Origin: Lachnospiraceae bacterium
GTDB taxonomy: Bacteria; Bacillota; Clostridia; Lachnospirales; Lachnospiraceae
Direction: 5' to 3'
DNA: 62,610 nt
NCBI GenBank assembly: GCA_015057055.1
Contig: SVFE01000006.1
Location: forward strand, 1-62,610
Below the pieces are notes generated by a model. The model was given only the letters and a program-made list of their open reading frames with translations. It was not told the DNA's origin and ran no database searches. Below, one piece after another: positions 12,060 to 21,242 of this stretch. Position numbers and translations under genes: made by a program. Positions within the stretch are counted from its first letter, which is position 1. Every line of letters begins with the position of its first letter.

Positions 12060-12975
12060 TTTCTGCCCTCTGACTGTCCTCTTCCATTACAATAAATGCT
12101 CCAAGGTTTCCTCTGCGGCCTTTGCTTGCCCGGTGAGAAAACAAATACTTTGAATTGCAGCATGTACACACATTGGTCACTTCGATATGTTCCGGCAAAA
12201 TGCCTGCGTTTTCCAAAACAAGCAAATTGGCGCGCCACAAATCCAAATGGTATTTGCCGTTTCCTTTATCCCAAAACAACGCCCCAGCGTCTCTGTCCCT
12301 GCTGCATAGAGGCACTAAATTCCGCCCGTAAACCGGATAAAAACGCTCCCGAAAAGCAAGCAGTAAATCCTCGCTGACTTCGTAGCAATTCCGGCATATG
12401 GATGGCCCAATCGCAACCAAAATATCTTCCGGATTACAGCCAAATTCCGCTTGCATTTTTTGAACGGTTTTTGCTCCGATTCCGTTCATGGTTCCTTTCC
12501 ACCCGGAATGACTAAGTCCGATACCTTTCCCTGTTTTATCCGCGAAAAACAGGGGTACACAGTCCGCGAAAAAAGCGGAAAGAACTACGCCGCTTTCCTT
12601 GGTTACCAAACCATCCGTATCAAAAAAATCCTTTTCCCTTACAATGCCGTGCCCCTTGTCTTTTTTTGTGACAACCCGGACGACATCGGTATGGGTTTGG
12701 TCCGTCGAAACCAAATCCTCTGATTCGTATCCCAGTGCCTCAGCAATGCGACGAAAATTTTCCTCCACTGCAGTTTTTTCATCACCTCTGGAAAAACTCA
12801 GATTCATGGAGGACCATTCACCTGCGCTAACGCCTCCCATTCTAGTAGAAAAAAGATGTTTCACACCGACGCATTGTTGTAATTTCGGAAAAACCAAATA
12901 CGGAAGGAACGTTTTTTCCTGTAGCCCGGGAACCATCCTGTTTCCGTCCGTTGTCTTCCACTGCCTCTCTATCAT
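12040..12975 (-). CDS. YfiH/LACC1-type purine nucleoside phosphorylase (polyphenol oxidase family)
   Basis: A 311-residue member of the multicopper-oxidase-unrelated DUF152/YfiH family. Members, including human LACC1, have purine nucleoside phosphorylase and adenosine deaminase activity. The metal-site segments are visible: FSTRMGGVS near residue 42, TDQTHTDVV, ADCVPLFFAD, GLSHSGWKGT with its key His, and the C-terminal TCCNSKYLFSHRAS. Length is a little above the usual 250-280. Its ATG overlaps the stop of the upstream kinase gene by 4 bases, and its end overlaps the Nudix gene by 20, so the three form a tightly packed operon. Confidence 0.85.
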   Translation of the reverse strand: MIERQWKTTDGNRMVPGLQEKTFLPYLVFPKLQQCVGVKHLFSTRMGGVSAGEWSSMNLSFSRGDEKTAVEENFRRIAEALGYESEDLVSTDQTHTDVVRVVTKKDKGHGIVREKDFFDTDGLVTKESGVVLSAFFADCVPLFFADKTGKGIGLSHSGWKGTMNGIGAKTVQKMQAEFGCNPEDILVAIGPSICRNCYEVSEDLLLAFRERFYPVYGRNLVPLCSRDRDAGALFWDKGNGKYHLDLWRANLLVLENAGILPEHIEVTNVCTCCNSKYLFSHRASKGRRGNLGAFIVMEEDSQRAENEVFKD

Positions 12976-15686
12976 AAATCACTATTCTTTCTGTCGGCGT
13001 AATCTGCCGCACATTGCAATGTCTCCCGATACAAGGTCTTGAAATTATCCCATTCCGCATTCAGAAAATCTTCCAGCGCCGCATTGGCGGCCAATTCATG
13101 CTTTTTGGCCATATCCGCTATTTTCTTTGCACCAACGGCCAGTGACGTACCGTTTATGGAATGCATAACAATTCCGTAATCTTTCCATTTCTGTTCTTTT
13201 AAATATTGCTCTAATTGTCCGATGTACTCTTCTCCGTCCTCGCAATATATGCGCAAAGACTCAAGATACAACTCTGTATCGTTATTAGTGTAATGATAAC
13301 CCAAATTAAAGTTGATATATTCATTTCCTTCTGCAATCAGATATTTCTTTAAAAGAGCTTCCAACTTATCGGATTCTACCGGCTTGGAAAGATAGCCGTC
13401 AAATCCCTCGTCTTTGTATTTCTGCTCTACTCCGGCAATGGCGTTCGCTGTTAATACGATAATAACCGTTTTATGATTCGGGTTTTCCAAATCCTCTTTA
13501 ATCATATGCATGGTTTCCACGCCGTCCAAATCCGGCATCATATGATCCATTAAAATCAAATCATATTTTTTATTCTTGGTACTTTCCAGACATTGCCGTC
13601 CGCCGGATGCATAATCTGCCTGAATTCCGGTCCTTTTCAGCAAACCCTTCATAACCTGCAGATTCAAATCATTATCATCTACAATCAATATATTCGCATT
13701 GGGCGCATACAAATACTCTTCCTTAACATTTTCTGACTTTCCGGAATTAACGCTCAAAGCTTCTTTCCAGTGACTCCAATCCGTGTCATCCACAATTTCC
13801 TGCGGAATCTTAACAATAAAGGTTGTTCCCTTTCCGTATTCACTTAAAACCTCCATGGAACCGTCCATCCCTTCCACCAATTGCTTGGCGATGGCAAGCC
13901 CCAGTCCGGTGCCCTCCACGTTACGGTTTTTCTTTAATTCAAGACGCAAAAAACTTTCGTATAAATGTTCCAGATCTTTTGGTTTAATACCAATTCCGGT
14001 ATCGGCAATGGAAAAACACAACACAAATTTTTCCTCTGCTTTTTCACTGTAAACCTTAAAGGATACGCTTCCTTTCTCCGTATATTTGGTAGCATTGGAC
14101 AACAAATTATTCAGTATCTGTTTGACGCGGATTTCATCACCTTTTAATACACTGGGCAAGCCTTCTTCCACATCCGTGATAAACTGTAAATTTTTTTGCT
14201 TAATACGTACCTGGGAGCCGATAATGACATCTTTCACCAAATCCGGCAAAACATAGTCCCCTTCTATGATTTCAAGTTTTCCTGCTTCAATCTTGGAATA
14301 ATCCAAAATATCATTAATGATGCCCAGAAGCATTTGACTGGCACGCTTAATATTTTCCGCATACTCATTGATGGATGAATCCTTGCTTTCCCGCAAAATC
14401 ATCTCATTCATACCGATAACCGTGTTGATCGGCGTACGGATTTCATGGGACATATTCGCCAAAAACATATCTTTGGATTCGCTGGCTGCTATAGCCTTTT
14501 GCTTTTCTTTTTCACTGCGAAGCAAATCATTAATTGTCTTTAATCCGGACATCATAAGAAGGAATAAAAGTCCGATGCAAAGCGGTACTCCGTTGTATTT
14601 TGCATCGTTGCTGTATACCATAAGAATTTCAAAAATCCCCATCACCATCAGTCCGGAAAATCCAATGGCAACCTCTTTATATTCTTTGATATACCCTTTC
14701 ACCAAATCCGTAAACATGGTAACAAAGAACAGCACAATCAGACCAAACAGTAAAATATGAGAGGAAAGCATGGTCTCAAAAAAGTCCTTAATTTCCAGTA
14801 TCTGCAGCAAAAACAATACAATGAAGTTAATTTCCGAAGCCAGGGAAAGCAATACATAATAACGGTTATATCGCCCTTTTTGGATTTTATTCATAAATAA
14901 ACCGCCGGGAATCGGCAAAAGCATAATCACCAAAAAGCCCATATACATGGCAATTGTACTGTTCGGAAGCAAAAATTGTCTAAGTCTTGATTCCGAAAGC
15001 ATCCAGGTTGAGGCAAGAAGCATAAAAAGTCCCAGGTAAACAAGTTCTGTTTTTTTATGGTACCTTAAATTGATAAACAGACACACTGCAACAACCAGCA
15101 TACTCAAAATCATCAAAAGAATTGCCACAACCGTAGCCGCTGCGTAGGAACGGATCAGATAAGACCAAATTTCCGACTTAATTCCCATAATAATTTCGTC
15201 GACATGTCCGGAATAGGCGGAATCACTAAAACTTTCCATCCGAAGCGTCTTTCCGGCGTCTTCTTTTCTCACTTCAAACAGGATGTAGGTCGTCGTACTT
15301 GTTTTTCCGAACATTTGTGAATCAATCGTGGAATATTCGGCCCGCAGTTCTTCTCCAACATAAATTTTATAATCCTGTTGGATTCCCCGGATACAAAACC
15401 ACAAATCCCCGATTCCCTCCGGAATCGTGGTTTCAATGGTAAGAATCTCACCGCGTGGATTTTCATATTCGCCGGGAACGGTAATCGGCACGCGGCTTCC
15501 GTCCGGCATAACCCGCTCCCATTTTGCTTCAAAAGGGACACATACTCCCAGTTCTACTTTATTTTCGGAGGTCCAAAATGTTTCTCCTAAAGCAAAAAAC
15601 AAATAGGTGCCAACAACCAGAAGCATCATCACTATCTGCACTAAACTGTCTATTCTTTTTGCACTTTCCGTTTGTTTTTCTTTCAT
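12972..15686 (-). CDS. hybrid sensor histidine kinase with receiver and Hpt domains
   Basis: A 904-residue membrane-bound phosphorelay protein. Order: one N-terminal membrane segment (about 12-33), an extracytoplasmic region (about 35-175), a seven-segment membrane block (to about 390) resembling 7TMR-DISM receptors, HisKA (MSHEIRTPIN, phospho-His), HATPase_c (NNLLSNATKY and GTGLGLAIAK), a receiver with the phospho-Asp motif LILMDHMMPDLDG, and a C-terminal Hpt domain (MHSINGTSLAVGA). The Hpt motif has Asn where Lys is usual. No DNA-binding response regulator or output partner is encoded nearby. The signal is unknown. It lies 19 bases downstream of yraN and overlaps the YfiH-type gene by 4 bases. 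Confidence 0.9.
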   Translation of the reverse strand: MKEKQTESAKRIDSLVQIVMMLLVVGTYLFFALGETFWTSENKVELGVCVPFEAKWERVMPDGSRVPITVPGEYENPRGEILTIETTIPEGIGDLWFCIRGIQQDYKIYVGEELRAEYSTIDSQMFGKTSTTTYILFEVRKEDAGKTLRMESFSDSAYSGHVDEIIMGIKSEIWSYLIRSYAAATVVAILLMILSMLVVAVCLFINLRYHKKTELVYLGLFMLLASTWMLSESRLRQFLLPNSTIAMYMGFLVIMLLPIPGGLFMNKIQKGRYNRYYVLLSLASEINFIVLFLLQILEIKDFFETMLSSHILLFGLIVLFFVTMFTDLVKGYIKEYKEVAIGFSGLMVMGIFEILMVYSNDAKYNGVPLCIGLLFLLMMSGLKTINDLLRSEKEKQKAIAASESKDMFLANMSHEIRTPINTVIGMNEMILRESKDSSINEYAENIKRASQMLLGIINDILDYSKIEAGKLEIIEGDYVLPDLVKDVIIGSQVRIKQKNLQFITDVEEGLPSVLKGDEIRVKQILNNLLSNATKYTEKGSVSFKVYSEKAEEKFVLCFSIADTGIGIKPKDLEHLYESFLRLELKKNRNVEGTGLGLAIAKQLVEGMDGSMEVLSEYGKGTTFIVKIPQEIVDDTDWSHWKEALSVNSGKSENVKEEYLYAPNANILIVDDNDLNLQVMKGLLKRTGIQADYASGGRQCLESTKNKKYDLILMDHMMPDLDGVETMHMIKEDLENPNHKTVIIVLTANAIAGVEQKYKDEGFDGYLSKPVESDKLEALLKKYLIAEGNEYINFNLGYHYTNNDTELYLESLRIYCEDGEEYIGQLEQYLKEQKWKDYGIVMHSINGTSLAVGAKKIADMAKKHELAANAALEDFLNAEWDNFKTLYRETLQCAADYADRKNSDL

Positions 15687-15705: not shown

Positions 15706-16059
15706 TTAAGGGATATAGGCGAAGGCATTTTTTATCCAATGCAGTTCATCCCCCTCTATTGCAATAACATCAAAACGCATCGGTGAATTTTCCGTCAAAA
15801 AATTCTTCATCCTATAATAATCGGATGTGCGGCAAATCGTTCTTTGCTTTTTCCAATCCACGCTTTGCAGGGCACTTCCGCTTCTGGAAGTTTTTCTCCA
15901 TTTCACCTCGGTAAAAACCACAAATTCTCCGTCTTTGGCAACAATGTCAATTTCCCCCATCCGGCATCTGAAATTTCTTTCCAAAATTTTCAATCCCTGT
16001 TGCTCCAAATACAAAACTGCTTTTGTTTCATATTCGCCGCCAACCTGTCTTTTATTCAA
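15706..16059 (-). CDS. yraN: YraN family (UPF0102) endonuclease-like protein
   Basis: A 117-residue protein of UPF0102, a family with a Holliday-junction-resolvase-like nuclease fold. The active-site pattern is present: GEIDIVAKDG followed by VVFTEVKWRK, giving the E-D...ExK arrangement of PD-(D/E)xK nucleases. Biological role remains unclear in the family. I chose TTG 16059 because AGGA lies about 9 bases upstream and it overlaps the end of the FlhB-like gene by 8 bases; the upstream in-frame extension runs through that gene. The neighbourhood rnhB-FliK-like-FlhB-like-yraN is also seen in other Firmicutes. Confidence 0.85.
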   Translation of the reverse strand: MNKRQVGGEYETKAVLYLEQQGLKILERNFRCRMGEIDIVAKDGEFVVFTEVKWRKTSRSGSALQSVDWKKQRTICRTSDYYRMKNFLTENSPMRFDVIAIEGDELHWIKNAFAYIP

Positions 16060-16363
16060 GAATTCGTTTCCTTTCCGCGCTTTCTGTCTTCGCTTTAATC
16101 TTATCCATCGCATCCACAAAGACCAAAATTTCTGCCACTACCTCATATAGTTCCGGCGGAATCATATCTCCGATTTCCAATCGGGACAATGTATCAGCTA
16201 ATTTTCCGTCCTGATGAACCGGTACGTTTTCTTCTTTTGCTTTTTCAATAATTTTTTCCGCTAAAGCGCCTCGTCCGGACGCAATGACTCTCGGCGCTGC
16301 ATCATCCGGATCATACTCCAGCGCGATGGCCTGTTTCGGTTTTTCTTTCATACTGTCTTTCAT
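16052..16363 (-). CDS. FlhB C-terminal-domain-like protein (YlqH-type)
   Basis: A 103-residue soluble protein matching the cytoplasmic C-terminal half of FlhB/YscU export-switch proteins: AIALEYDPDDAAPRV, then GRGALAEKI, AKEENVPVHQD and EIGDMIPPELYEVVAEILVFV. In full-length FlhB this region follows the NPTH self-cleavage site. Here the protein begins at the equivalent place and has no membrane domain and no NPTH motif. This is the B. subtilis YlqH type. ATG 16363 is 6 bases after AGAGG. It follows a FliK-like gene by 12 bases. The pair mimics FliK and FlhB-C, which interact in the flagellar substrate switch, but no other flagellar gene is in the window. Confidence 0.85.
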   Translation of the reverse strand: MKDSMKEKPKQAIALEYDPDDAAPRVIASGRGALAEKIIEKAKEENVPVHQDGKLADTLSRLEIGDMIPPELYEVVAEILVFVDAMDKIKAKTESAERKRILE

Positions 16364-16375
16364 TCTCGTCCTCTT

Positions 16376-18205
16376 TTATGCACGCATATCAAACCCTAAA
16401 TGACCGGTGGTTTTCGGTATCCCACCCTGCTCTTTTATCAGTAGTTCCTTAACATCGCCTTCTTCGCCTTTTTTTATCATCTCACTCTTCATCTTGTAAC
16501 CGCGTTTTTCCAAACGTTCATTCAATACATGAATGTTTTCTGCGATAAAATCAATCATTTCATCGCTTTCCAAATAAAACTTGGTGAAAACGGATTTTTC
16601 CGGCGTTATGGATGCGTACACATCCAACGGTCCGAGGGAAGGCATATCCAAATGAAGAAGTGCACTGACATTTCCGTCATTCTGAGCCAGACTCTTTTTA
16701 TCCGTATAAACAAACAAATCTCCCGTGGTTTCGCTCCCGTTCATTTTCAATGGAAGTTGAATGTACTGATACATCTGGTTCATCTGATTCATAAAATCCA
16801 AATTCTGATTCATTTGGGATAAATTACCCGCCAATGCCGAATCCGGTTTGGCAATTTGGGAAAGCACCTGGGATAAATCCTTTGTTTGTCTGGTCAATCT
16901 TTCATAAAGGTTATCTACCGTCTGCTTTTTCCCTACTTCTTCCGGGTTCAGCATCCATTGTCCTGTCATGGCATCCCGAAGCAAAGCTTTAAACTCTTTC
17001 CCCTCCAGCATCTGTTTCAACGGTTCCGTTAATCCCTCTTTCTGCAAAAGAGTTCTGACCACGGAGAAAATATCCTTTGCGGAAAGAGCAGTTTCCTTTC
17101 CTTCCGGCATTAAGGTTTGTCTAAGTTCGCTGTCTTGCAGGATTGCAAACAGTTTATCTTTTATTTCCGTGGAAACTGCGATTTTCCCGTTCTCCGAAGA
17201 AGATTCCAATGCATTTTTTTCGGAAAGCATGTCGGCATCCGCCAAAACCAGCCGATGGTCCTGCATCGTTCCTTCCGCTTCCTTTGAAGTAACGGCGCCT
17301 TCCGGCTGCCCCTTCACAGTTCCCTGCTCCTGCATTTCTTTTAAAATCACCTTACCGTCCACCACATCCAAGGTAGCAATATTTTGTCCCTGCAAAGGAT
17401 TTCCGGTTGGATTTGCCGTAAGAGAATTGGTCGCTTGCCCTTTCTCGCCCGGCAATGTAAGAGGCGAATTTTCCGCTGTTCCCTCTTGCATCGTTATTCC
17501 CCCGGCCTCTCCGGCTAACGATTCCCCGGAAAATATTTTTAAAACGCTGTCCATAAACTGCATTGCTTTGGAATTTTCACCATTTGCAGTCATCTCCGTA
17601 AAAAGATTATGGACATCCTCCATGATATTTTGCATATGACCGGTAATTTGATTTTCATAGTTCTGATAAGCTTCAAATTGCTTCACTGTACCCGGATTTA
17701 TTTCTATTCCCAGTTTTTTCATCTGCACAAGGGCAGAAACATCCGCCTCCGGATGGGCCGATACCGTCTGATACATGTCCGTAAGCCCCTGCTTATCAAT
17801 TCCCATTCCCGCTTCCATCATGGAATTGGTCATGGCAAGGGTCGTTTCATTTATCGTCATGTTGGCTGCCAAAAGCGCCGAAGACGCCGTACTGACATTA
17901 TTCATATTGGTATATAACGGCGATAAAGTGACCTGTTGTCCTGCCGTTCCTTTTAAAGCAAATGTCACCGTCTGTCCCGGTTGCAAATCCATATTGCCTT
18001 CCAAACGCGCCGTCAACACCTTACCTTTCCCCACTTCAACCTGCACCGCATCACCGCTCATTCCGACAATTTTGCCGGTAATCATCTGTCCCGGTTTTAT
18101 GCCGGAAGACGCCGAAGCATCCCCTGTTGCGGGCATTATATTGTCTGCGGTGGGAACGGGACGAACCCCACTCTGACTCCCATATATTCCGGATAATGCA
18201 CTCAT
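16376..18205 (-). CDS. FliK-like protein (flagellar hook-length control C-terminal domain; YlqG-type position)
   Basis: A 609-residue soluble protein. The N-terminus is low complexity. A small beta-rich region (about 35-95, GQMITGKIVGMSGDAVQVEV) follows, then a long variable, Q/N/T-rich middle. The C-terminal 120 residues (QLPLKMNGSETTGDLFVY, LHLDMPSLGPLDVYASI, LNERLEKRGYKM) fit the FliK/Flg_hook C-terminal domain. FliK measures hook length and then triggers FlhB. Here the gene sits between rnhB and an FlhB-C-like gene, the position of ylqG in B. subtilis. Function outside the flagellum is unknown. ATG 18205 is preceded by a GGGGAGAGA-type site. Confidence 0.75.
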   Translation of the reverse strand: MSALSGIYGSQSGVRPVPTADNIMPATGDASASSGIKPGQMITGKIVGMSGDAVQVEVGKGKVLTARLEGNMDLQPGQTVTFALKGTAGQQVTLSPLYTNMNNVSTASSALLAANMTINETTLAMTNSMMEAGMGIDKQGLTDMYQTVSAHPEADVSALVQMKKLGIEINPGTVKQFEAYQNYENQITGHMQNIMEDVHNLFTEMTANGENSKAMQFMDSVLKIFSGESLAGEAGGITMQEGTAENSPLTLPGEKGQATNSLTANPTGNPLQGQNIATLDVVDGKVILKEMQEQGTVKGQPEGAVTSKEAEGTMQDHRLVLADADMLSEKNALESSSENGKIAVSTEIKDKLFAILQDSELRQTLMPEGKETALSAKDIFSVVRTLLQKEGLTEPLKQMLEGKEFKALLRDAMTGQWMLNPEEVGKKQTVDNLYERLTRQTKDLSQVLSQIAKPDSALAGNLSQMNQNLDFMNQMNQMYQYIQLPLKMNGSETTGDLFVYTDKKSLAQNDGNVSALLHLDMPSLGPLDVYASITPEKSVFTKFYLESDEMIDFIAENIHVLNERLEKRGYKMKSEMIKKGEEGDVKELLIKEQGGIPKTTGHLGFDMRA

Positions 18206-18244: not shown

Positions 18245-19021
18245 TCAATCAGTAACATCAACAAAGTTCTTTATAAAGCTCTTTCTGTGAATCGGGCTGG
18301 GCCCATATTCTTTTATGGCGGCAATATGCGCCGCGCTGCCGTAGCCCTTGTGTCCGGCAAAACCATACACCGGCATAACACTGTCGTATTCCACCATCAG
18401 CCGGTCCCTGGTTACTTTTGCAATAATACTGGCTGCCGCAATGGATGCACTTTTTGCATCCCCTTTTATAATGGGAACCTGCCGAACCGCTAAACCGGGA
18501 ATTGTCACCGCATCATTTAACAAAATATCCGGAGCCGGATTCAGCATCGACACGGCCTCCTTCATTGCTTCATACGTAGCATTTAAAATGTTTATTTCAT
18601 CAATGCGCTTGGGCGATGCATATCCAATCCCGACACTGATTGCTTCCTTCATGATGATATCGTATAATTCTTCCCGTTTTTTTTCGGAAAGTTTTTTCGA
18701 ATCATTTAAATACAAAATGGAACAATCTTTCGGCAAAATAACTGCCCCCGCTACCACCGGTCCGGCAAGCGGCCCTCTGCCGGCTTCATCGATTCCGCAA
18801 ATGTAATCATATGCTGCATACTCTCTTTCAAAAGAAAACATCTGATGCATTCTTTCTTTTTCTTTTCTGCAGGCCGCAATAAGTTTCTCGGCTCTTTCTA
18901 CCAATTTTTTAACCGAGGAGCGTTCATCTTCACCGTATACCGCAATAAATCTCTCTGGCTCCGAATCCTTCCAAAGAGCGAAATCCTCTTGAATCTGTGT
19001 CATTTTTATCTTCTGTTCCAT
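18245..19021 (-). CDS. rnhB: ribonuclease HII
   Basis: RNase HII removes ribonucleotides and RNA primers paired with DNA. The 258-residue protein has the catalytic DEAGRGPLAGPVVAGA segment (near residue 77; Asp-Glu pair), then NDSKKLSEKKRE and the later KGDAKSASIAAASIIAKVTRD containing another catalytic Asp. The first 70 residues are an extra N-terminal region, as in other Firmicutes enzymes. ATG 19021 lies 7 bases after AAGGGG. It follows a signal peptidase gene by 11 bases and precedes the FliK-like gene. Confidence 0.96.
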   Translation of the reverse strand: MEQKIKMTQIQEDFALWKDSEPERFIAVYGEDERSSVKKLVERAEKLIAACRKEKERMHQMFSFEREYAAYDYICGIDEAGRGPLAGPVVAGAVILPKDCSILYLNDSKKLSEKKREELYDIIMKEAISVGIGYASPKRIDEINILNATYEAMKEAVSMLNPAPDILLNDAVTIPGLAVRQVPIIKGDAKSASIAAASIIAKVTRDRLMVEYDSVMPVYGFAGHKGYGSAAHIAAIKEYGPSPIHRKSFIKNFVDVTD

Positions 19022-19032
19022 ACAAAAACCCC

Positions 19033-19704
19033 TTATTGATGTTCTACTATCCCAAAATCCGCGAAGGGATAAATTCTAAGCCACGCCTTTCCGATTATCT
19101 GCTCCCGGTGAATAACCCCAACTGCAGGATTTCTGCTGTCCGAAGAATGGTTTCGATTATCTCCCAGCACAAAATATTCATCCGCAGCCAGCGTAATCCC
19201 GTAAGCCGCCATGCCCGGATCCTCAATTACTTCCGCGCCGTAGTTTTCCTCCAAAATCCGTTCTTCGCCGCTTTCATCCGTAATATAAATCACACCGTCT
19301 TCATCAATCCGCACCGTCTCTCCCGGCATGCCGATAATTCGCTTAATGTAATAGGTATCCTCTTCGTAAGCAAAGGGAAACACAATAATGTCAAAACGCT
19401 CCGGCTCGGAGAATCGGTAAGTCACTTTATCTACAATCAGATTATTTTCGTCCATTAACGTCGGTGCCATACTGGAACCATATACCACCGTCCTTTGTCC
19501 GACATATTTAACAATAAATAGTGTAAGAATCAACACAGCAAGCAAATACAGACTATTAAACAAAATCTCCTTTAACAACGCTTTTGTTTTTTCTTGCCGC
19601 TCCTTTGTCTCATCAACCCCAACTTCCTCTGCGGTCGTTTCTTCCGTTAACGAGACGCTTTCCAAATCATCATCATCAAATCCCGGCATATCCGCTAATC
19701 TCAT
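19033..19704 (-). CDS. lepB: signal peptidase I (paralogue 1)
   Basis: Signal peptidase I cleaves signal peptides from exported proteins at the outer face of the membrane. The 223-residue protein has a 40-residue acidic cytoplasmic N-terminus, one membrane segment (about 48-66), the nucleophile Ser78 in YGSSMAPTL, and the general base Lys121 in YYIKRIIGMPGE. The later LGDNRNHSSDSRN box is also intact. It starts one base after rbgA. A second lepB lies on the other side of rbgA. The two differ mostly in the N-terminal tail, this one being longer and acidic. Confidence 0.95.
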   Translation of the reverse strand: MRLADMPGFDDDDLESVSLTEETTAEEVGVDETKERQEKTKALLKEILFNSLYLLAVLILTLFIVKYVGQRTVVYGSSMAPTLMDENNLIVDKVTYRFSEPERFDIIVFPFAYEEDTYYIKRIIGMPGETVRIDEDGVIYITDESGEERILEENYGAEVIEDPGMAAYGITLAADEYFVLGDNRNHSSDSRNPAVGVIHREQIIGKAWLRIYPFADFGIVEHQ

Positions 19705-20575: not shown

Positions 20576-21163
20576 TCATTCAATAAAGCCCATACTGGTT
20601 TCGTTTTCGGGAAGCCGAAACCATGCGATACCGATAATGTAATCCTTTTTGACAACCCCCACATTACTGGAACGGCTATCCTCGCTGTTGTTCCGGTTGT
20701 CTCCCAAAACAAAATATTCATCTTCTCCCAAGGTCACTCCGGCCTGGGCAATGCCGGCATCTTCGATGCGGTCATACACTCCCGCCTCTTCATAAGGTTC
20801 CCCGTTGACATACACCAAACCGTCCTGTATCAGTACCGTATCTCCCGGCACTCCCACAATACGTTTAATATAATAGTGGGAGTTTTCATTACCATTGGGC
20901 AAAAAAACAACAACATCACCGGCTTTCGGCGACACCCAAAAATAGGCGAAACGATTAATCAACACTTCCTGTCCGTTATACAGGGACGGCTCCATGGATA
21001 CGCCGATTACACTGGTTCGGATACCGAAACAAAATACAAACACAAAGGCCAACAGTGCCATAGCAAAAGTCCAAAAAACCCATGTTCCGATTTCCCGAAG
21101 CACCTTTTTATTCAGTCTCTTTTCCCGGTTATAAAAGCTTAACCCTCTTCGTCGTTTGGCCAT
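20576..21163 (-). CDS. lepB: signal peptidase I (paralogue 2)
   Basis: A 195-residue signal peptidase I. A basic cytoplasmic tail (MAKRRRGLSFYN) precedes one membrane segment (about 28-46). The nucleophile is Ser56 in GVSMEPSL and the general base Lys100 in YYIKRIVGVPGD; LGDNRNNSEDSRS follows. I chose ATG 21163 because AGAGG lies 5 bases upstream. The opposite charge of its N-terminal tail compared with the paralogue 0.9 kb away suggests different partners. It lies downstream of the rplS terminator, so it may depend on readthrough or a promoter I cannot place. Confidence 0.95.
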   Translation of the reverse strand: MAKRRRGLSFYNREKRLNKKVLREIGTWVFWTFAMALLAFVFVFCFGIRTSVIGVSMEPSLYNGQEVLINRFAYFWVSPKAGDVVVFLPNGNENSHYYIKRIVGVPGDTVLIQDGLVYVNGEPYEEAGVYDRIEDAGIAQAGVTLGEDEYFVLGDNRNNSEDSRSSNVGVVKKDYIIGIAWFRLPENETSMGFIE

Positions 21164-21242
21164 CTTATCCTCTCCATAAAGGCAACAATTTTTTTCGCCA
21201 AAAATTGTCGCGCACAATCATGATAATTATACCAAAAAACGC

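Follow-up and report, generated by a model that had tools for sequence, protein, structure and literature searches.

Helicobacter pylori has a stand-alone homologue of the C-terminal part of FlhB, HP1575 or FlhX, which Wand et al. reportedly described in 2006 as a 'spare part' and which, going by their title, is said to permit export when FlhB-CC is deleted. We analyzed a stretch of DNA of 62,610 nt from a Lachnospiraceae bacterium (assembly GCA_015057055.1, contig SVFE01000006.1; the whole stretch is referred to as the window) that encodes a 103-aa protein of this kind beside a 609-aa protein of the FliK family. We call the two FlhX and FliK2, labels that are our own. Like HP1575, this FlhX is an FlhB-CC homologue that stands alone and occurs in a flagellate alongside a full FlhB; unlike HP1575, it is linked to a partner of the FliK type, lies within a housekeeping operon and is, to our knowledge, known from sequence alone. 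The same gene order presumably occurs in Bacillus subtilis, where ylqG-ylqH lie between rnhB and a yraN-like gene, and we take COG2257 to be the COG of FlhX.

A previously unreported flagellar connection of COG2257 was suggested in 2006 from phyletic vectors of 50 bacteria (PMC1489924); that study reached by flagellar co-inheritance the same conclusion as ours, and the portion available to us gives neither a partner gene nor a mechanism. Two surveys (PMC10746217, PMC9321776) count FlhX among the components of flagellar export; the second, in the part available, names flhX-fliK together in Nitratiruptor, a member of a different phylum, outside the main flagellar cluster and without stating whether this is a second or the sole FliK. 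Elsewhere, ylqH is listed among the type III genes of Aliarcobacter (PMC9235176) and a ylqG point mutation is tabulated in evolved B. subtilis clones (PMC11523185). Among the papers that it listed, our literature search found no functional study of ylqG or ylqH and, in the one collection to which it was limited, no study of a FliK2-FlhX unit in Bacillota. For Helicobacter, FlhX as a 'spare part' has been described already; we found no description of a FliK-type partner dedicated to it across Bacillota.

How the flagellar type III gate changes its substrates is a long-standing question, and in recent work on Salmonella FlhB-CC is thrown out: FliK-dependent removal of the cleaved FlhB-CC switches the gate from early to late substrates, and loss of CC stops early export (PMC13344023). 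The pair studied here resembles Salmonella FliK and FlhB-CC in having the same two domain families, the same pocket residues and a C-terminal tail on the FliK side. It differs in that Salmonella FlhB-CC is cut from FlhB before its FliK-dependent removal, whereas here a free, uncleavable copy is separately encoded. We find that the pair is real and flagellar. It varies on a known component, in that FlhX here comes with a second FliK dedicated to it. Our preferred reading, to which we assign a probability of about 0.52, is that the pair serves as an accessory version of the flagellar substrate-specificity switch, a second copy that acts in trans. The link to the flagellum is strong; how the pair works we infer.

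FlhX and FliK2 match the FlhB and FliK families

FlhX matched the Pfam family Bac_export_2 (PF01312) at model positions 262-335 only (E 2.5e-20; 73.4 bits, cut-off 24.4). It also matched the NCBIfam model flhB_rel (TIGR00789) with an E of 6.9e-29, its 99.9 bits lying under the model cut-off of 117.35, and FlhB chains among PDB sequences (best E 9.2e-13). When sequences from genomes of the same family (hereafter the family; the relatives named in a genome scan are mostly Lachnospiraceae) were aligned, the NPTH cleavage motif was found in 39/39 FlhB versus 0/61 FlhX, and it was likewise absent from all 26 FlhX from outside the family. The N-terminus of FlhX falls a few to a few dozen residues ahead of the strand that follows the FlhB cleavage site. 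Judged by its sequence, FlhX is FlhB-CC minus the membrane half. It carries signatures of its own, namely SGxG in place of the FlhB KGxD, P48, D52 and a one-residue deletion, and a single branch of the tree splits the 61 FlhX from the 39 FlhB (support 99/97, from 84 columns and with the bootstrap unsettled). On the basis of this separate clade we reject the reading that FlhX is a recent fragment of the host's own flhB. Two of our alignments (A1 and A2) hold the window's row without its first residue and some rows without the final one; the rows of A3 to A5 are complete.

The docking pocket for early substrates in Salmonella is formed by FlhB A286, P287, A341 and L344 (PMC13344023). The residues of FlhX that align with them, A23, P24, A77 and L80, are invariant in 50 aligned FlhX. 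Outside the family the pocket is kept as well, A23 and P24 in 25/26 and 26/26 sequences and A77 and L80 in 26/26 and 25/26.

FliK2 matched the Pfam family Flg_hook (PF02120) over residues 505-574 (E 7.9e-8; 32.5 bits, cut-off 29.8), and a profile of flagellar FliK aligned with it at an hhalign probability of 89.1. A comparison with PDB sequences gave no meaningful match. The AlphaFold2 model (mean predicted local distance difference test score, pLDDT, 70.1; predicted template modeling score 0.51) has strands at its N-terminus, helices, a stretch of low confidence and, at its C-terminus, an alpha/beta domain, and gives the switch domain moderate confidence only. In this model residues 41-96 presumably form a small beta-barrel, and residues 233-339 are presumably a disordered linker; the N-terminal region also gave a sub-threshold match to TOBE (E 0.0033).

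These searches bear on an earlier note on this DNA, made from the letters and an open reading frame (ORF) list, which had proposed a hidden Markov model search of residues 480-609 against the Flg_hook and FlhB C-terminal families. Both ORFs have the coordinates that it gave, and both proteins matched their families: the smaller protein is indeed an isolated FlhB C-terminal domain, as the restriction of its match to positions 262-335 agrees with, and the FliK-like nature of the larger one, which that note regarded as the weaker half of its claim, lies narrowly above the curated cut-off.

Further FliK-domain proteins of about 950-1200 aa occur in several family genomes (six fetched, L306-L311; e.g. 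G140:C40:69468-69680, G143:C8, G011:C63, G068:C18, G091:C15, G017:C31), some of which thus hold three FliK-type proteins. The one of these that was scanned, L306, has DUF6240 (PF19753) and Flg_hook.

Among the genomes sampled, FlhX is confined to those with FlhB

Among 150 family genomes, 81 matched PF01312. Weak matches in G035 and G054, like one in G173 of the phylum sample, proved to be membrane-part or stop-ridden and were dropped from the FlhB counts, which leaves 79 real ones; two of these, G123 and G141, hold only a piece of flhB. The FliK domain (PF02120) occurs in the same 79 of 150. FlhX was present in 77 of the 79 FlhB-bearing genomes versus none of the 71 that lack FlhB (Fisher p 3.5e-41, ignoring phylogeny); the 77 comprise 71 listed genomes and six found separately. 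One of the two exceptions, G096, has a FliK2 gene of the sister-clade type described below that runs up to a contig end, and is still counted as lacking FlhX.

In the phylum sample PF01312 matched 252 of 299 genomes, or 251 without the spurious G173. FlhB alone was found in 65 of these, at least two matches in 185, and in G369 an N-terminal flhB piece only, at a contig end; G369 is counted as FlhB-bearing and stands outside the 65 that lack FlhX. The 185 are raw match counts, and G172, G265, G268 and G436 among them have one FlhX-profile match each. Some genomes (G425, G195, G233, G188 and G287) have more than one FlhX-type match, G425 as many as four to PF01312 and five to the FlhX profile. 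Because no genome among the 299 has FlhX without FlhB, yet 65 have FlhB alone, FlhX implies flagellar genes, while flagellar genes do not require FlhX.

The window's own genome fits this distribution. Whole-genome searches with the PF01312 and PF02120 profiles placed a full-length flhB and another fliK, the stronger match of the two, on contig C69, which also carries flhA, fliP, fliQ, fliR, a FliY-type gene, motA, motB and an FlgE-type gene. Judged by this gene content, the host is a flagellate.

Gene neighborhoods tie the pair to the flagellum

We examined 60 of the 70 FlhX loci listed besides the window's, taken by score, and they fall into two clades. In clade A, which is window-like (50 loci), rnhB lies upstream of flhX in 50/50, yraN within 500 bp downstream in 45/50, and FliK2 between rnhB and flhX in 39/50. 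Seen from the other gene, 80 FliK2 loci have flhX adjoining in 78 and rnhB in 79, and the remaining two without flhX end at a contig edge. The neighbors of three FliK2 genes that lie away from flhX were, by eye, not obviously flagellar. In the FlhB-lacking family genomes, the yraN loci (one per genome, 70 of 71) have rnhB on the same strand nearby in 65 cases, within 160 nt in 61, and show no trace of FlhX or FliK2; in the other five, one of rnhB and yraN was unrecognized, in part through contig ends.

Clade B, the sister clade (10 loci), has no rnhB or yraN at flhX. Instead, in 9/10 loci flhX directly adjoins or overlaps a gene of about 470 codons; a contig end interrupts the tenth. We call its product FliK2-B (e.g. 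L201:3527-4918, L199:13038-14468 and L206:5165-6592). Three copies scanned had no Pfam match over the cut-off. The C-terminal half of FliK2-B aligned with that of clade A, FliK2-A, at an hhalign probability of 91.5 and a score of 61.0, against a maximum of 20.9 among 20 column-shuffled controls. One clade-B locus has the order flhA, sigma factor, two FlgF/G-type genes, fapA, FliK2-B, flhX and PilZ. In another, FliK2-B and flhX are followed by a GGDEF-EAL gene, a rod-type gene, fliE and fliF, with a CheA-type gene divergent upstream, and in a third, scanned less fully, a flagellin lies about 4 kb away. Since clade-B flhX lies near flagellar genes in these three scanned loci, on which the statement rests, the pair is tied to the flagellum by position.

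The C-terminal tails of the FliK-type proteins also differ between the two sets. In Salmonella the proposal is that FliK acts on FlhB-CC through its last five residues (PMC13344023). FliK2 ends in FDxRA in 55/58 sequences; the tail of the clade-A flagellar FliK, [VILM][DEN][YF]x[AV] in 12/14, is a different one. In clade B, four flagellar FliK that were read (L201, L203, L200 and L207) have no VDYxA-like tail, and all 14 distinct FliK2-B sequences end in [DN]x[KRT][VI].

The distribution and the neighborhoods bear on several points of the earlier note. Its statement that the pair is conserved between rnhB and yraN agrees with the clade-A counts given above. That no export apparatus gene is present in 62 kb reflects the window only, which the two profile searches covered; the flagellar set of the same genome is on C69. 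The non-flagellar setting that this absence implied is contradicted by that contig and by the confinement of FlhX to FlhB-bearing family genomes. As grounds against its claim the note had paired occurrence only in flagellates with occurrence in random places; the former is what we observe, and the places are not random. Of its two suggestions for the pair, modifying export in trans is the better, and working together at something else finds no support in a distribution of 77/79 against 0/71.

The pair outside the family

From the phylum sample we took the 30 best-scoring FlhX loci, which are not a random draw. Among the 26 best-scoring ones outside the family, flhX is immediately preceded by a long ORF in 25. 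Pooled as one profile and compared without a shuffled control, these 25 upstream genes aligned with FliK2-A at a probability of 99.3 (359 columns), with FliK2-B at 93.0 and with flagellar FliK at 94.7. A tail [DN]x[KR][VIA] stands at the very C-terminus of 23/25 versus 3/879 background ORFs, the pattern having been picked after the tails were viewed and nearly half of the 25 loci coming from two families. FliK2-type proteins that go unrecognized by Pfam come to light through this linkage.

A profile of such proteins was run on control genomes. FliK2 was found beside flhX in 18 of 20 FlhX-bearing controls (16 by coordinates compared, plus G152 and G277). We searched 60 of the 65 flagellates that lack FlhX, and 57 of them had no match to the N-terminal part of FliK2. 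Of the three that did, G218 and G372 were rejected as cases of FliK2 without FlhX, the frame in G218 running off the contig and the contig of G372 ending 64 nt after FliK2; the third match, in G159, is weak. FliK2 follows FlhX in occurrence, because 18/20 FlhX-bearing controls have it as a neighbor and 57/60 genomes without FlhX have no match. The order is reversed, flhX to FliK2, in three controls (L350, L352 and L354, from G184, G155 and G224), with a FliK2 of about 315 aa that ends in GVN[FY][KQ]V. The order rnhB-fliK2-flhX occurs in another family too (L358), and flhX lies near yraN in family f81.

A possible second copy of the export switch

In the mechanism that we propose, FlhX would be made as an FlhB-CC that needs no cutting: the pocket for early (rod and hook) substrates is retained, and a membrane anchor and a cleavage site are both absent. 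It would act at the flagellar gate, replacing or working beside the FlhB-CC that the flagellar FliK removes at hook completion, and the switch domain and conserved tail of FliK2 would act on it; in clade A the pair would be made from the housekeeping operon. Docking of FlhX at the gate, its binding by FliK2 and an effect of the pair on the timing or the reversibility of the early-to-late switch are all inferred. In Xanthomonas the C-domain of HrcU is reported to function when supplied in trans (PMC3040844).

Several observations weigh against this reading. The same source reports that the post-cleavage HrcU fragment alone (265-357) did not bind the T3S4 protein HpaC (PMC3040844), so FlhX, which has no NPTH, may not bind FliK2 by itself. 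Around flhX and fliK2 only scattered one-mismatch matches to a sigma-28-like pattern were found and no promoter could be assigned to the pair, so that its expression is not bound to keep step with flagellar assembly. FlhX and FliK2 are not always together: in 11/50 clade-A loci flhX directly follows rnhB and FliK2 is not beside it, and in two of the 20 controls (G190 and G259) it is not beside flhX either. Nor is FlhX always present in flagellates. G044 bears FlhB and has rnhB adjacent to yraN with no flhX, and 65 of the 251 FlhB-bearing phylum genomes, with their single PF01312 match, manage without it. In the 10 clade-B FlhX the second pocket half is altered, to V/I and to Y. Compared directly, FliK2-B and flagellar FliK align at a probability of 0.5, so that the FliK kinship of FliK2-B runs through FliK2-A. 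Outside the family only the pooled upstream profile is strong, profiles of single families reaching 71.5 and 52.6 against FliK2-A and 1.6 and 0.4 against flagellar FliK; the lack of a shuffled control and the choice of the tail pattern described above count on the same side.

The pair could be pure backup: FlhX would serve simply as a spare FlhB-CC, FliK2 would be redundant with FliK, and in wild-type cells neither would take a part of its own in switching. This is how the title of the Helicobacter precedent, 'spare part', would have it, and the 65 genomes with FlhB alone, together with G044, indicate that FlhX is dispensable in evolution. We nevertheless consider it unlikely: the two partners are conserved separately, each with its own signatures (SGxG, P48, D52 and the deletion in FlhX, the tail in FliK2), which suggests a distinct job, and a mere reserve would be expected to drift faster or be lost.

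A rather improbable alternative is that FlhX acts as a cytoplasmic decoy or chaperone, binding early substrates or the flagellar FliK off the gate until FliK2 releases it, so that export is tuned without docking at FlhB. A protein with no membrane part that keeps its substrate pocket would suit such a role, and the Xanthomonas study reports that T3S4 proteins and early substrates compete for the C-domain (PMC3040844). The trans function of that same domain and, by its title, the work on HP1575 favor action at the gate instead.

It is quite improbable that FliK2 is a second ruler, which would set another hook or rod length with FlhX merely linked. The protein is long and its switch domain is kept, and a linker, presumably disordered in the model, separates its N- and C-terminal parts as in a ruler. 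In the 11 clade-A loci mentioned above, however, it is FlhX that remains at rnhB with FliK2 elsewhere, and among the 60 flagellates without FlhX, the sole traces of FliK2 were two cases at contig ends and one weak match, so the dependence runs from FliK2 to FlhX. That the pair works outside the flagellum, in RNA or DNA housekeeping or another secretion route, is suggested by its neighbors in the window and is very improbable given that FlhX is absent from all 71 FlhB-lacking family genomes, that rnhB lies within 160 nt of yraN without the pair in 61/70 of their loci, and that the sister clade has the pair among flagellar genes.

The early-to-late switch is described as irreversible in Salmonella; here, in a bolder version of our reading that we regard as doubtful, it would be resettable. 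FlhX would re-supply CC to emptied gates and restore or hold the early mode, FliK2 would be a dedicated ejector or holder of FlhX, and a housekeeping operon would supply a second switch module that can be exchanged. In clade B, where the flagellar FliK that were read have no tail of the usual kind but FliK2-B ends in one, the function of the tail might even have gone over to FliK2-B. A bacterium that makes FlhB-CC in free form, together with a FliK-type partner for it, is a natural test of whether fresh CC resets the gate or keeps it in early mode, and for specialists the value of the pair lies mainly in making resettability testable. The linkage also gives a likely job to ylqG and ylqH, annotation orphans in many Bacillota families.

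Organization of the window

The genes are transcribed from the minus strand in the order rnhB, fliK2, flhX and yraN and are tightly packed, with gaps of 39 nt between rnhB and fliK2 and 12 nt between fliK2 and flhX (Table 1). The naming of yraN agrees with PF02021 matches in relatives.

Table 1. Coordinates in the window of the pair, its neighbors and the features of the two proteins
Feature	Position	Strand	Remarks
flhX (ylqH type)	16052..16363	-	FlhB-CC domain alone, 103 aa; lacks a transmembrane part and the NPTH cleavage motif
FlhX A77 to L80 codons	16124..16135	-	second half of pocket; A77 and L80 align with A341 and L344 of the solved FlhB (36hu_K1)
FlhX A23-P24 codons	16292..16297	-	first half of early-substrate pocket; align with A286 and P287 of a solved 383-aa FlhB (PDB chain 36hu_K1)
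fliK2 (ylqG type)	16376..18205	-	second FliK-family protein, 609 aa; PF02120 E 7.9e-8, over cut-off
FliK2 last five residues (FDMRA), codons	16379..16393	-	conserved C-terminal tail
FliK2 switch (T3S4 / Flg_hook) domain	16481..16696	-	PF02120 match
FliK2 residues 233-339	17189..17509	-	mostly low confidence; pLDDT < 50 at 233-280 and 288-339
FliK2 residues 41-96	17918..18085	-	five predicted strands (41-50, 53-58, 62-68, 79-88, 91-96)
rnhB (RNase HII)	18245..19021	-	housekeeping neighbor upstream, 39 nt from fliK2; named by eye from ORF list
yraN (UPF0102)	15706..16119	-	downstream neighbor; named by eye; listed ORF overlaps flhX, start codon unsettled

Other genes nearby were named by eye. 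Two type I signal peptidase-like genes (19033-19704 and 20576-21217) flank a ylqF-like GTPase gene, and a gene for a hybrid histidine kinase-like protein of 904 aa (12972-15686) lies directly downstream of yraN.

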